DNA of 55,984 nucleotides, taken from NCBI GenBank assembly GCA_021818955.1, contig JAKASR010000024.1, positions 1-55,984 of the forward strand, read 5' to 3'. Positions 1,993 to 53,347 of this stretch are shown here, piece by piece. Position 1 is the stretch's first letter. Each line of letters opens with the position of its first letter. The notes beneath the pieces are model-generated. The model was given only the letters and a program-made list of their open reading frames with translations. It made no database searches and was not told where the DNA came from. The position numbers and the translations under genes are program-made. The stretch comes from Acidobacteriota bacterium (lineage in GTDB: Bacteria > Acidobacteriota > Terriglobia > Terriglobales > SCQP01).

Positions 1993-2130
1993 TAAGCGTT
2001 AACGGCCGAGTCGGACAGCAGTTTTCGTCATTGGCAATTTCGTAGAAATTGTCTTTAGCATGCTCAATTTCGAAGAAATTGCCTGAACATTATCAATTTC
2101 GGTGAAATTGCCTGAAGCCATGCCCGCAGG
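1993..2130 (+). repeat. Modular repeat A + three B hairpins (locus 2)
   Basis: Module A (AAGCGTTAACGGCCGAG, then CAGCAGTTTTCGTC) is followed by three successive B hairpins of type AATTTC-(3 nt)-GAAATT; the loops read GTA, GAA and GGT while the stems stay nearly constant. It lies between the ends of the convergent GMC gene and the rrf2-type gene. Confidence 0.85.
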
Positions 2131-2145
2131 CATCGGCTTCGATCT

Positions 2146-2652
2146 TTACACCCGGCGCGGCGGGGCTGCCGGTACGGCGGATTCAGCCGGGCCGCTGGTG
2201 ATCGTGACCAGGTTGCCGGCCCAATTTTCCATTTGCTGCTCGCTGGCCAGCAAATCTTTCAGGCTGGTGCGGTTGAGCACCTGGTCGACAACCACCTGGA
2301 CGGTGCGCCAGAGCGAGCGCAGGGCGCAATCGTCGGCGAGATTGCAGACGGAGTGGTGGCCGGGGTGGTTATCGCAGAACTCGCCGTCAAACAGGCGTCC
2401 GCCGAGCACGCTGAGCACTTCACCCACCAGGATGCGCTCGGGCGGGCGCGCCAGGGCGTAGCCGCCGGCTTGGCCGCGGATGCTGGTGATCAGCTTGCCC
2501 TGGCGCAGAATGCGCAGCAGCTTGGCGACATAAGGCTCGGAGAGTCCCGCGCGTTGGCTGATTTCGGGAATGGTCAGGCTGCCGCCGGCGGGCTGGCGTC
2601 CAAACTGCAGCAGGCAGCGCAGGCCATATTCTTCCTGGGCGGTGAATTTCAT
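2146..2652 (-). CDS. Rrf2 family transcriptional regulator (probable Fe-S sensor)
   Basis: 168-residue winged-helix regulator of the Rrf2 family (IscR/NsrR/SufR-type). The HTH is at about residues 26-49 (LTIPEISQRAGLSEPYVAK), followed by the wing RGQAGGYALARPPE at 59-72. Three cysteines, C93, C103 and C109, lie where the family binds [2Fe-2S] or [4Fe-4S]; the C-x9-C-x5-C spacing is wider than in IscR (x5/x5) or NsrR (x7/x5). It follows the suf operon on the same strand but is separated from it by a repeat carrying a terminator-like hairpin, so it may be its own transcription unit. Likely role: sensing cluster status and controlling suf. Ligand and targets are inferred. Confidence 0.9.
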   Translation of the reverse strand: MKFTAQEEYGLRCLLQFGRQPAGGSLTIPEISQRAGLSEPYVAKLLRILRQGKLITSIRGQAGGYALARPPERILVGEVLSVLGGRLFDGEFCDNHPGHHSVCNLADDCALRSLWRTVQVVVDQVLNRTSLKDLLASEQQMENWAGNLVTITSGPAESAVPAAPPRRV

Positions 2653-2670: not shown

Positions 2671-2895
2671 AAGCGTTAACGGCCGAGTCGGACAGCAGTT
2701 TTCGTCATCGGCAATTTCGAAGAAATTGCCTCAAACCATGCCCGCAGGCCGGGTTCGCGCGGGGTTCCTATTAGGTCCCGCGCCTATTAACGACAATAAA
2801 CTTTCAGCCGCCATGAGTATTCGCAATGTGTCCGGTTTCGGCCGGACCATTGCGAAAGCGTCAGCGCCTAAAAGTAAAAGCGGCCGAGCCGCTTA
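2671..2895 (+). repeat. Complete modular repeat A-B-C-D (locus 3)
   Basis: One of the most complete copies: A, B hairpin with GAA loop, C hairpin (GCGCGGG/CCCGCGC with inner CCT-ATT-AGG), then D. The final TTA of the repeat (2893-2895) is, on the minus strand, the TAA stop of the DUF59 gene, so the AAGCGGC-TCG-GCCGCTT hairpin and TTTTACTTTT run follow that stop directly. Confidence 0.9.
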
Positions 2896-16471: not shown

Positions 16472-16482
16472 GGAGCTCAACG

Positions 16483-16534
16483 TGTTATGCCGAGGGGTGA
16501 TGATAGTGTGTTATGCCGAGGGGTGATGATAGTG
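16483..16534 (+). repeat. 26-bp tandem direct repeat, two copies
   Basis: TGTTATGCCGAGGGG followed by TGATGATAGTG occurs twice in exact succession (16483-16508 and 16509-16534), followed by a partial third start (AAGCCGAGG). It sits directly upstream of the winged-helix gene and could lie within its 5' leader. Confidence 0.85.
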
Positions 16535-16697
16535 TCAAGCCGAGGTTGATTGAACGAGGTTATGGAAATTGATCGATGGAAGGCGGTTCCATGCCGAGGA
16601 CCAGTTTTTTGCAGTATAACAGATTTATTTATTGGATGGTCGGCGGACACCCGGGGTTCCGAGTGGCGGGATTAATGCGAGCTCGATCTTAGGGCCG

Positions 16698-17061: not shown

Positions 17062-18108
17062 TTGCAAACACGTGAAGCTCTGGGCGCATGGAAAGACATT
17101 TTGGCCGGCCGTACGCCAGCGCTTTCCATCGAAATCACGAAGGAATGTCCGCTGCATTGTCCGGGTTGCTACGCCTTCGACGAGCGCCACTTGGGAGGCG
17201 AGCGCGCGCTGCGCGACTTGAGCGATTTCCGCGGTGACGCGCTGGTTGCAAACGTCTTGAGCGTTGTCGACGTGCGCGCGCCCAGGCTTGTCTCGCTGGT
17301 GGGCGGCGATCCGCTGGTGCGCTTTCGCGAGTTGGAGCTTCTCCTGCCCCAACTGCTGGCGCGCGGCATATTCGTGCAAGTCGTTACCAGCGCATTCCGG
17401 CCGCTGCCGGTTTCGTGGAGCTCGCACCGGCGTCTGCAATGGGTCGTGTCGGTTGACGGCCTAGGGCCGGAGCACGATCGGCGCCGCGCCCCCGCGACCT
17501 ACGAGCGCATTCTTGCCAACATCCGCGGCCATCAGGTCGTCATTCACTGCACCATTACCGCCCAGATGCTGAACCGCCCGGATTACTTAAAGGATTTCGT
17601 GGAGTTCTGGTCGGCCAACCCCCATGCCAAAAAGATCTGGATGAGTGTGTTCACGCCTCAAGTCGGAGCCGATCTGCCCGAGATTCCCAGCCCGGCGCAG
17701 CGACGTTTTATCGTGGCGGAATTGCTGCGTTTGCGGCCGCTCTATTCCAAACTCGATATGAAGGCTGCGGTCATCGAGCAGCTATTGACTCCGCCTTCCT
17801 CGCCGGCGGCGTGCATTTTCGCGCTGACGACAACCTCGCTTTCGGCGGACCTGAAGACCGTAATCTCGCCCTGCCAGTTTGGCGGCATGCCGGACTGCTC
17901 TCGCTGCGGCTGCATGGCCTCGATCGGACTGGCGGCGCTCGGCAAGCATCGCGTGGCGCCGGGCATCACTGCCGGCGCTTTGTTTCAAGCTTCGCTTGCG
18001 ATTGGCAGGCGCGTGGGACAGCTCAAACGGGCGTTCGCCCGGCTGCGCCCAGCCCCGGTCCGCGGCGGCGGGAACGCCGAACGCGTTAACAGCCGCGTCG
18101 GGCAGTAG
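17062..18108 (+). CDS. Radical SAM protein with C-terminal cysteine cluster
   Basis: 348 residues. The radical SAM [4Fe-4S] motif C29-x3-C33-x2-C36 (ECPLHCPGCYAFDE) opens the barrel; VSLVGGDPLVRFRE is the expected GGDP/GGEP element that contacts SAM. From about residue 271, CQFGGMPDCSRCGC suggests an auxiliary cluster or SPASM-like site. Substrate not identifiable and no partner gene adjoins. The only usable in-frame start after the upstream TAG is TTG 17062 with a poor ribosome site, so the start is uncertain. The last nine codons and the stop (RVNSRVGQ*) are read from repeat module A, meaning the original 3' end was changed by the repeat. Confidence 0.82.
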   Translation: MQTREALGAWKDILAGRTPALSIEITKECPLHCPGCYAFDERHLGGERALRDLSDFRGDALVANVLSVVDVRAPRLVSLVGGDPLVRFRELELLLPQLLARGIFVQVVTSAFRPLPVSWSSHRRLQWVVSVDGLGPEHDRRRAPATYERILANIRGHQVVIHCTITAQMLNRPDYLKDFVEFWSANPHAKKIWMSVFTPQVGADLPEIPSPAQRRFIVAELLRLRPLYSKLDMKAAVIEQLLTPPSSPAACIFALTTTSLSADLKTVISPCQFGGMPDCSRCGCMASIGLAALGKHRVAPGITAGALFQASLAIGRRVGQLKRAFARLRPAPVRGGGNAERVNSRVGQ

Positions 18109-18220
18109 TTTTCGTCCGAAGCAATTTCGGAGAAATTGCTGGCAGCCAGGCTCGCCGGCCGGGTTCGCGCGGGGTTGCTTTTAGGTCCCGCGCCTGGGAA
18201 CGACAAATAAGCAATTCCAC
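18083..18220 (+). repeat. Modular repeat A-B-C-(E start) overlapping a gene end (locus 8)
   Basis: GCGTTAACAGCCGCGTCGGG and CAGTAGTTTTCGTC (A), AATTTCGGAGAAATT (B), GCGCGGGG...TCCCGCGCC (C) and the first arm of E (GCAATTCC). Its first 26 bases are coding for the radical SAM protein and supply TAG. Confidence 0.85.
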
Positions 18221-18235
18221 AGCGGATGAAGTCCG

Positions 18236-18342
18236 GTGACAGTTGGTGACAATTGAGTGACAATTGAAAAGCATTCAATTGTCACCACTTAAATTATTGA
18301 ATTTAATGGAATTAATCCGAATGGTTACAAGAGTGACAATTG
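18236..18342. promoter_or_regulatory. Cluster of GTGACAATTG boxes
   Basis: Copies of GTGACA(A/G)TTG start at 18236, 18246, 18257 and 18333; an inverted copy lies at 18275-18285. The third and the inverted copy form an exact 11-bp inverted repeat, GTGACAATTGA-(7)-TCAATTGTCAC. The first three are about one helical turn apart. The segment is AT-rich within GC-rich surroundings and lies between two gene 3' ends. Confidence 0.6.
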
Positions 18343-18358
18343 ATTTTGATTTTTCCTT

Positions 18359-18690
18359 AAGCGTGAATGGCCGAGTCGGGCAGCAGTTTTCGTCACTGGC
18401 AATTTCGGAGAAATTGCCTGAAGCATGCTCAATTTCGGGGAAATTGCCTGAAGCATGCTCAATTTCGGGGAAATTGCCTGAAGCATGCTCAATTTCGGGG
18501 AAATTGCCTGAAGCATGCTCAATTTCGGAGAAATTGCCTTCAGCCAGGCTCGCCGGCCGAAGCGCGGGGTTCCTGTTAGGTCCCGCGCCTAGGAACGACA
18601 AAATAAAGCAATTCCGCGGGAATTGCATCAAGCAAGCCGGCAATTCCGCGGAATTGCGCCCGGCAGCCATGAGTATTCGCCGCGCGCCCG
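18359..18690 (+). repeat. Modular repeat A + five B hairpins + C + E + start of D (locus 9)
   Basis: Longest copy. After A come five B hairpins in register; 18421-18540 are four 30-base tandem units (AAGCATGCTC + AATTTCGGGGAAATTGCCTG type). Then C (GCGCGGGG...GTCCCGCGCC), two E-type hairpins (GCAATTCC-GCG-GGAATTGC and a variant) and the beginning of D (CCATGAGTATTCGCC). It ends four bases before the zinc-ribbon gene's stop. Confidence 0.9.
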
Positions 18691-20195: not shown

Positions 20196-20273
20196 GAGTA
20201 TTCGCCATGCGTCCGGTTTTGGCCGGACCTTTGCGAAAGCGTCAGCCCCTAAAAGTAAAAGCGGCCGTGCCGC
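20196..20273 (+). repeat. Module D (locus 10)
   Basis: GAGTATTCGCCATGCGTCCGG through CGTCAGCCCCTAAAAGTAAAA and hairpin GCGGC-CGT-GCCGC. On the minus strand it lies 18 bases after the metE stop, with a T-rich run behind the hairpin. Confidence 0.88.
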
Positions 20274-22679: not shown

Positions 22680-23000
22680 AAGCGTTAACGGCCGGAAGCG
22701 TTAACGGCGGAGTTGGACAGCAGTTTTTGTCCGAAATGGCAGACCGAAGCGCGGGGTTCTGGTCCGGTTAGGTTCCGCGCCTGGGAACGACAAAACAAAG
22801 CCATTCCGCAGGAATTGCATCAGGCAAGCCGGCAATTCTGCGGGAATTGCGCCTGTTAATGCCCGGCAGCCATGCGTGTTCGTTCGTCGCGGCGGTCGTC
22901 CGGTTTCGGCCGGACCTTTGCGAAAGCGCCAGCGCCTAAAAGTAAAAGCGGCCGTGCCGCAGCGTCAATGCCTGAAAGTAAAAGCGGCCGAGCTGCTTTT
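22680..23000 (+). repeat. Modular repeat A(doubled)-C-E-D with doubled end hairpin (locus 11)
   Basis: The A core is duplicated (GCGTTAACGGCC, GGAAGCGTTAACGG). C reads GCGCGGGG...TTCCGCGCC; E has two hairpins (CATTCC-GCA-GGAATTGC and GCAATTC...GAATTGC); D ends in two successive terminal hairpins. The gap 22598-22998 between metE and the glycosylase is otherwise empty. Confidence 0.88.
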
Positions 23001-25015: not shown

Positions 25016-25266
25016 AAGCGTTAACGGCCGAGTCGGACAGCAGTTTTCGTCATGGGCAATTTCGAAGAAATTGACTCAAGCCATGCCCGCAGACCGAAGC
25101 ACGGGGTTCCTATTAGGTCCCGCGCCTATGAACGACAATACCAAGCAATTCCGCAGGAATTGCGCCCGGCAATGCCCGGCATCCATGAGTATTCGCCATG
25201 CGTCCGGTTTTGGCCGGGCCTTTGCGAAAGCGTCAGCGCCTAAAAGTAAAAGCGGCCGAGCCGCTT
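25016..25266 (+). repeat. Complete modular repeat A-B-C-E-D (locus 12)
   Basis: All five modules in order: A; B with GAA loop; C (GCACGGGG...GTCCCGCGCC); E (GCAATTCC-GCA-GGAATTGC); D with terminal AAGCGGC-CGA-GCCGCTT. It lies between divergent genes, not at a gene end. The rest of the gap to 25447 has no gene. Confidence 0.92.
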
Positions 25267-29256: not shown

Positions 29257-29366
29257 AAGTGTTAACGGCCGAGTCGGACAGCAGTTATCGTTCGAGAAAG
29301 TAGGCCAAAGCGCGGGGTGCCTGTTAGGTCCCGTCAGCGCCTACAAGTAAAAGCGGCCGAGCCGCT
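29257..29366 (+). repeat. Shortened modular repeat A-C-D (locus 13)
   Basis: A (AAGTGTTAACGGCCGAG), then part of C (GCGCGGGGTGCCTGTTAGG) fused directly to the GTCAGCGCC segment of D by an internal deletion, and the terminal hairpin. On the minus strand it begins 36 bases after the stop of the pilin-like gene. Confidence 0.85.
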
Positions 29367-29794: not shown

Positions 29795-29988
29795 AAGCGT
29801 TAACGGCCGAGTCGGACAGCAGTTTTTGTCCGAAATCGCAGGCCGAAACGCGGGGTTCCTATTAGGTCCCGCGCCTATTAACGACGATAAACTGTCGGCA
29901 TCCATGAGTATTCGCAATGCGTCCGGTTTCGGCCGGACCTTTACGAAAGCGTCAGCGCCTAAAAGTAAAAGCGGCCGAGCCACCGCTT
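29795..29988 (+). repeat. Modular repeat A-C-D (locus 14)
   Basis: A, C (ACGCGGGG...GTCCCGCGCC, CCTATTAACGACGATAAA) and D; B and E are missing. The terminal hairpin is altered (GCGGCCGAGCC-ACCGC). It lies between the amidohydrolase stop and the pilin-like gene's start, both on the minus strand. Confidence 0.88.
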
Positions 29989-31086: not shown

Positions 31087-31307
31087 AAGCGTTAACGGCC
31101 TAGTCGGACAGAAGTTTTCGTCATGGGCAATTTCGGAGAAATTGCCTGCAGCCATGCCCGTAGGCCGGGTTCGCGCGGGGTTCCTGTTAGGTTTTGCGCC
31201 TATAAACGAAAAAAACTTTCGGCAGCCATGAGTTTTCGCAAAGCGCCCGGCTTCGGCCGGACGTTTGCGAAAGTATCGGCGCCTAAAAGTAAAAGCGGCT
31301 GTGCCGC
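31087..31307 (+). repeat. Complete modular repeat A-B-C-D (locus 15)
   Basis: A (AAGCGTTAACGGCCTAG), B with GGA loop, C (GCGCGGGG with a diverged second arm TTTTGCGCC), D with GCGGCTGTGCCGC. Placed in the divergent gap between the amidohydrolase and nuoA; more diverged than loci 3 and 12. Confidence 0.88.
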
Positions 31308-46156: not shown

Positions 46157-46292
46157 TTCTTCTTGTTTGTCACGCATTTCATGCTGCGCGGGGTATGCGG
46201 CCGTGCCGCTGTGAACGAAGTGGCTTGGACGCAAGTCTTATCGAGCGGGAAAATCAAGGTGTCATGCTGATAAATTATTGATTCTAAATGGC

Positions 46293-46370
46293 ATATTCGC
46301 CATGCGCCCGATTTCGGCCGGACCTTTGCGAAAGCGTCAGCGCCTAAAAGTAAAAGCGGCCGAGCCGCTT
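46293..46370 (+). repeat. Module D (locus 16)
   Basis: CATATTCGCCATGCGCCCG through CGTCAGCGCCTAAAAGTAAAA to AAGCGGC-CGA-GCCGCTT. Between nuoN and the glycosyltransferase, both plus strand. A lone GCGGCC-GTGCCGC hairpin at 46197-46209 may be a second scrap. Confidence 0.88.
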
Positions 46371-53253: not shown

Positions 53254-53347
53254 AAGCGTTAACGGTCGAGTCGGGCAGCCATGCGTCCGGTTTCGGCCGG
53301 ACCTTTGCGAAAGCGTCAGCGCCTAAAAGTAAAAGCGGCCGAGCCGC
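53254..53347 (+). repeat. Modular repeat A-D, internal modules missing (locus 18)
   Basis: A (AAGCGTTAACGGTCGAGTCG) joined directly to D (CATGCGTCCGGTTTCGG) with a terminal GCGGC-CGA-GCCGC hairpin. In the gap (53083-53460) between divergent lipoprotein and tdh genes; nothing else seen there. Confidence 0.88.

Follow-up and report, generated by a model that had tools for sequence, protein, structure and literature searches.

Elements of the IS200/IS605 type have no inverted repeats, cause no duplication on insertion, insert 3' of a tetra- or pentanucleotide, carry subterminal hairpins and are associated with the lagging-strand template (PMC7290912, PMC6006769). The interspersed element described here resembles them and their non-autonomous derivatives (PATE) in lacking inverted repeats and target duplication, in inserting 3' of a short target, in bearing hairpins close to either end and in its orientation bias. 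It differs from them in that the genome carrying it has no transposase gene, in a target fixed solely at C (the next base being preferably C), in having as many as five hairpins arrayed internally, and in a density of ~15 copies per 100 kb (168 copies, full or partial, in the 1.09 Mb of sequence read from the focal genome, G000). The BOX elements of Streptococcus pneumoniae, which have terminal inverted repeats, target duplications and a 61% strand bias (PMC3049150), have in common with it fixed outer modules, variable tandem inner modules and a mostly intergenic position (PMC3049150), whereas the focal element is without inverted repeats or target duplication. REP/REPIN sequences with RAYT are likewise abundant, species-specific palindromes, and a RAYT-like gene is present in the sister species. 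However, in the sequences read no GTAG/GTGG tag is found at the foot of the B, E, left or right hairpins, the focal element is modular and 190–460 bp long, RAYT is absent from the genome, and the RAYT of the sister is not flanked by copies. TIR repeats with TIRYT, from Koribacter and other Acidobacteria, share the phylum and a transposase of the tyrosine type (PMC3733652), but are inverted repeats around a gene, of which the focal elements have none.

Architecture of the element

The window (the whole stretch of 55,984 nucleotides that was analysed, contig C35 of the draft genome) contains an array of short hairpins, termed B. The original prediction overlooked that B is one module of what we take to be a gene-less mobile element of ~190–460 bp, whose modules are arranged as S-(B)0-5-H-(E)0-5-M-T (Table 1). 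Across the 168 full or partial copies the ends are sharp and the module order is constant, with SHMT, SBHMT, SBHEMT and the short form MT as the common types. S forms the left end, H is a G+C-rich hairpin, and B units as a rule sit between the two and are seldom found alone. E hairpins (GCAATTCC-GCA-GGAATTGC) recur with a ~32-bp period, zero to five per element; they are followed by the M hairpin (GAGTATTCGC...CCGG-TTTCGG-CCGG...GCGAA) and by T, the right end (GCGCCTAAAAGTAAAAGCGGCCG[A/T]GCCGC). Short M-T copies occur solo 36 times in the focal genome. No match to the element was found in the plasmid collection searched.

Table 1. Coordinates of the focal element, its parts and further copies within the window.
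Feature	Position	Strand	Remark
Target of focal element	18355..18358	+	CCTT, conserved C at -4 (125/133 left ends)
S module (left end), focal element	18359..18395	+	Focal copy begins at 18359; consensus AAGCGTTAACGGCCGAGTCGGACAGCAGTTTTCGTC
B hairpin 1	18400..18416	+	Loop GGA
B hairpin 2	18430..18446	+	Loop GGG
B hairpin 3	18460..18476	+	Loop GGG
B hairpin 4	18490..18506	+	Loop GGG
B hairpin 5	18520..18536	+	Loop GGA
H module, focal element	18562..18588	+	Conserved loop GTTCCTNTTAGGT, also found in relatives
E hairpin 1, focal element	18608..18626	+	Loop GCG
E palindrome 2, focal element	18640..18657	+	Without 3-nt loop
Beginning of M, focal element	18671..18680	+	GAGTATTCGC; remaining M and T absent from focal copy
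Element copy, three B units	1994..2150	+	Right part lost
Complete copy S-B-H-M-T	2671..2892	+	
Copy S-B-H	18081..18205	+	Right part lost; overlaps 3' end of ORF 17062-18108
Copy without B	22696..22996	+	Two E hairpins, tandem T ends
Complete copy S-B-H-E-M-T	25016..25264	+	
Shortened copy without B	29257..29365	+	
Complete copy S-H-M-T	29795..29983	+	Without B or E
Complete copy S-B-H-M-T	31087..31307	+	
Short M-T form	20196..20273	+	Own left end GAGTATTCGC
Short M-T form	46291..46368	+	
Short M-T form	53270..53347	+	S remnant in front

The copy at 18081 meets an open reading frame for a radical-SAM-like protein (17062-18108), whose 3' end and stop codon fall within the S module (18081-18110); the element may have replaced the C-terminus of this protein. 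A second kind of repeat occupies 18205-18355 and has an A+T-rich core (TAAATTNNTGAATTTA) around which a short motif is directly and inversely repeated. The same core recurs on contigs C19 (~292, L119), C17 (~10378, L123), C6 (~76708, L012) and C12 (~142439, L059), and the motif varies by copy (TGACAATTG, GTGACATC, GGCGGCA, CGTTATTCCAA). It is unusual for the core to be conserved while the tags are specific to each copy. A 26-bp tandem repeat (GTGTTATGCCGAGGGGTGATGATAGT, 2.6 copies) at 16482-16545 is unrelated to the element.

Module B: copy number, stem and loop

The focal array (18400-18536, + strand) consists of five 30-bp units that all contain the hairpin CAATTTC-NNN-GAAATTG and are spaced by four identical linkers (CCTGAAGCATGCT); Tandem Repeats Finder returns a period of 30, 4.7 copies, a 98% match and a score of 266. 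This bears out the five tandem 30-base copies with a variable loop that had been described from the letters, and the five loops then listed (GAA, GGA, GGG, GTA and GGT), with rare stem change, are all present in the window, where none of the 12 B units has a stem mismatch. The copy number range of zero to five is also recovered: among 141 S sites, 55 are followed by no unit, 56 by one, 16 by two, eight by three, two by four and four by five. The unit length of 30 bases holds for most spacings, although roughly one in three is 29 bp. The parallel drawn with module E likewise stands in part, as the E loop does vary (GCA in 69/93, GCG in 17/93), whereas the focal E copy at 18640 has no 3-nt loop and forms a perfect palindrome of 18 bp. 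B hairpins are far more abundant than expected by chance. CAATTTCNNNGAAATTG occurs 257 times in the 3.8-Mb draft genome (reversed control, 0), 36 times in the sister species (G001, the sole other genome of the same genus among those searched) and 0–1 times in each of the 58 other genomes searched.

Units within one array differ at 2.1 of 30 positions and units from different arrays at 4.4, and because they are more alike within arrays we conclude that B copies arise by duplication in place. The identical linkers of the focal array and its three neighbouring GGG loops point the same way. The linker carries the palindrome AGCATGCT, and as a single DNA strand the array folds strongly (z -6.2), from which we infer a slippage-prone setting. 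Of the two origins offered in the original prediction, a selected structure or copies made by slippage, local duplication is thus upheld, but loop-only variation is not by itself proof of selection.

Constancy of the stem was measured on 140 B units anchored on S and a 28–31 bp period; units were accepted from 9 matches upward over the 14 stem positions, which keeps the bias towards intact stems weak. Per site, stems diverge by 2.7% on average, against 8.6, 52.9 and 14.3% at the three loop sites, up to 58% at linker sites and an average of 8.6% in S. Stem divergence is therefore ~3–5 times below that of the outer loop positions; stem substitutions are not as frequent as those of the loop, and the claim of a constant stem with a variable loop is sustained. 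Compensation within B is sparse. Stem changes are one-sided in 43 cases, 15 of them G-T/G-U compatible, and two-sided in five, of which four are complementary against 0.7 expected if the sides were independent. The two adjacent double changes in CAATGGCGAAGCCATGG also fit correction of a palindrome by template switching.

This last observation touches on an explanation of stem constancy without selection, in which template switching repairs imperfect palindromes, slippage makes the copies, and B is a passenger. It is compatible with a mobile element, and we regard it as a serious possibility, if rather less than an even one. In its favour, most of the small number of two-sided changes are complementary and some are adjacent, and the loops appear unconstrained after spread. 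Against it, the B, E and sister GCAAAACC units are all 8-bp hairpins with GNA loops despite different stems, and this in two species. Stronger evidence of structure is found outside B, in covariation of the left-end hairpin (see below) and in comparison of B (AATTTC/GAAATT), E (AATTCC/GGAATT) and the sister GCAAAACC hairpin (AAAACC/GGTTTT), between which all differences are compensated stem changes.

C-GNA-G is an unusually stable DNA triloop. Read in element orientation, GNA loops are found in 110/140 B units, 71/93 E units and 26/27 sister B units, the loops of the sister GCAAAACC unit being GCA or GAA. Among the 36 B loops that are neither GAA nor GGA, six keep the GNA pattern and 30 have lost it, and since so few of the minor loops keep it the B loop appears to be drifting. 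The GNA triloop was considered as the object of selection, a proposal weakened by these mostly non-GNA derived variants; the loop sequences give no support to selection acting on the loop once spread had taken place. The folding program gives equal energy to GNA and complementary TNC loops, with no bonus for C-GNA-G.

Insertion sites and orientation

Left flanks of aligned element boundaries are random except beside the joint. There, C stands at -4 of the S left end in 125/133 cases (p=1e-53, background C 0.31) and at -3 in 73/133, the remaining two target bases being free, so that the element inserts immediately 3' of four target bases, CNNN and mostly CCNN. With only one or two of four bases fixed, this target is looser than known IS200/IS605 targets. 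The rule extends to other left ends: the short M-T forms begin differently (GAGTATTCGC), yet have C at -4 in 28/36; in the abundant near-identical family of the sister species, whose left end is different again (TAGCGGCGGC), C is at -4 in 25/27; and among relatives of the element from two other genera the counts are 11/11 and 8/8. In full-length copies CCAT precedes M in 76/96, and this internal left end in target context may be the source of the MT forms.

The flank 3' of the right end is near random, and no signal of target-site duplication was found over 98 flank pairs. Right ends close with AGC-CGC or AGC-ATC, so that the last four bases also read CNNN, and comparison of the 5' end with the reverse complement of the 3' end gives 12/36 identities, that is, no terminal inverted repeats. 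Filled and empty sites can be compared in three cases: locus L034 of the sister species (CGGC|GATTTG), whose empty counterpart is a near-identical paralogue in that genome, and copies nested in a T module (CCTA|AA) and in an S module (CGTT|AACGG), both read against the family consensus. In all three pairs the C was present before insertion and no bases were duplicated or lost. The insertion pattern suggests movement as single-stranded DNA.

Neighbouring copies share their orientation in 128/142 pairs (p=3e-24), with agreement in 10/11 in the sister family; all 28 copies on contig C6 are minus and all 13 in the window plus. Agreement is ~95% below 20 kb, fades beyond ~40 kb and is near chance above 60 kb, and polarity switches several times on contigs C12 and C16. 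Given this decay and these switches, a simple replichore polarity is unproven. Across the draft contigs polarity is correlated with AT skew (rho -0.59, p=1e-5) and not clearly with GC skew. Replication-coupled insertion blurred by rearrangement and local hopping both fit these data. Transcription was rejected as the main cause of orientation, since convergent and divergent sites are polar too and 42/63 copies in tandem gene pairs lie antisense to the genes.

The gene context also bears on a reading of the element as a structured RNA (a terminator, a stabiliser of mRNA or a regulatory RNA) retained because it serves the host, in which B would vary since the RNA needs the stem alone. Hairpins that are conserved and mostly intergenic would suit such an RNA, as would the G-U compatibility of 15/43 one-sided stem changes. 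However, gene ends are not preferred, with 21 convergent, 63 tandem and 17 divergent sites near the share of intergenic length (genes called with a simple hexamer model of our own), and the antisense majority in tandem pairs, the collapse of copy number in most relatives and the clean insertions obeying a target rule all count against it. An Rfam search of the element matched no family. We consider a host RNA improbable.

Movement as double-stranded DNA by a DDE transposase, in a BOX-like or MITE-like element with B as its boxB, is slightly more doubtful still. The plan is that of pneumococcal BOX, with fixed outer and variable tandem inner modules (PMC3049150), but the terminal inverted repeats and target duplications of BOX (PMC3049150) are both absent here, and neighbour orientation is 90% concordant against 61% of BOX on the leading strand. 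Least probable is a non-autonomous group II intron or integron-cassette-like element, which would have the same coarse insertion features (no duplication, one-sided target, orientation bias) but is at odds with a target of a single fixed base 4 nt upstream, with the lack of any RNA family match, group II introns included, and with the absence of a recognisable ribozyme core in 190 bp.

Element ends, relatives and a model for movement

For the end structures, 40 copies with no or almost no B units, drawn from four species, were aligned. A left hairpin is predicted ~18 nt in (TCGGAC/GTCCGA in G000, TCGAACT/AGTTCGA in G003, TCGCAT/ATGCGA in G004) and covaries between genera, with compensation at two pairs, e.g. 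G-C/A-T/C-G and C-G/T-A; a right terminal hairpin is predicted as GCGGC-CNN-GCCGC. Subterminal left and terminal right hairpins are both conserved between genera, and the B modules lie directly behind the left one. The sister species carries a different, near-identical family (L030-L049, 235–356 bp) that has the H loop, the B hairpin and the target rule in common with the focal element and is probably recent, in addition to a few diverged copies of the focal element itself. As diverged relatives also occur in genus g3 (L135-L144) and genus g4 (L145-L154), the element family is old and its copy number strongly species-dependent.

Profile searches (PF01797 and NF047646) found no Y1 transposase in the focal genome, which is 96% complete, and it has no RAYT gene. 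The sister species encodes a RAYT-like protein of 252 aa that scores 64.5 bits, below the 80-bit cut-off, and G003 encodes two Y1 proteins; no element ends were found near the Y1/RAYT genes of these relatives. Beside the RAYT-like (Y1) gene of the sister species, short tandem repeats (L128:683-1072) encode a GRPGENW-type motif and are likewise without element ends. Our analysis indicates that the element works like IS200/IS605; membership is unproven because the focal genome has no Y1 transposase and the Y1/RAYT genes of relatives are without these ends.

Taken together, the B array is probably a hairpin module that is optional, duplicates internally and belongs to a non-autonomous mobile element moving by IS200/IS605-like (HUH-Y1) single-strand transposition. 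A Y1 (HUH) transposase, presumably supplied in trans or since lost, would fold one element strand at its hairpins and cut after CNNN at both ends. The single-stranded copy would then be joined 3' of a CNNN where DNA is exposed as a single strand, probably at replication forks. B hairpins would fold on the transposing strand behind the left-end hairpin, and slippage or unequal recombination would add or remove units of 29–30 bp within their arrays. Stems would be kept either as their folded form matters to the element or via template-switch correction of imperfect palindromes, while loops and linkers drift. B itself may help the element to fold, may serve as a binding site for the transposase, or may be a passenger that template switching keeps palindromic; we place a role in folding slightly above that of a passenger. 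More speculatively, and in our view unlikely, the elements may represent a new branch of the single-strand type in one Acidobacteriota family, with one fixed C at -4 and a variable row of hyperstable C-GNA-G hairpins that tunes folding or transposase loading.

The single-strand model brings together what is usually separate: the variable number of inner hairpins in BOX-like elements, and a one-sided target combined with single-strand transposition. If it is true, hairpin number becomes testable as a control of single-stranded DNA folding and movement, and the CNNN target rule would be unusually loose for single-strand transposition. In an uncultured group of Acidobacteria the elements also serve as a natural record of how strand polarity runs and how arrays grow.
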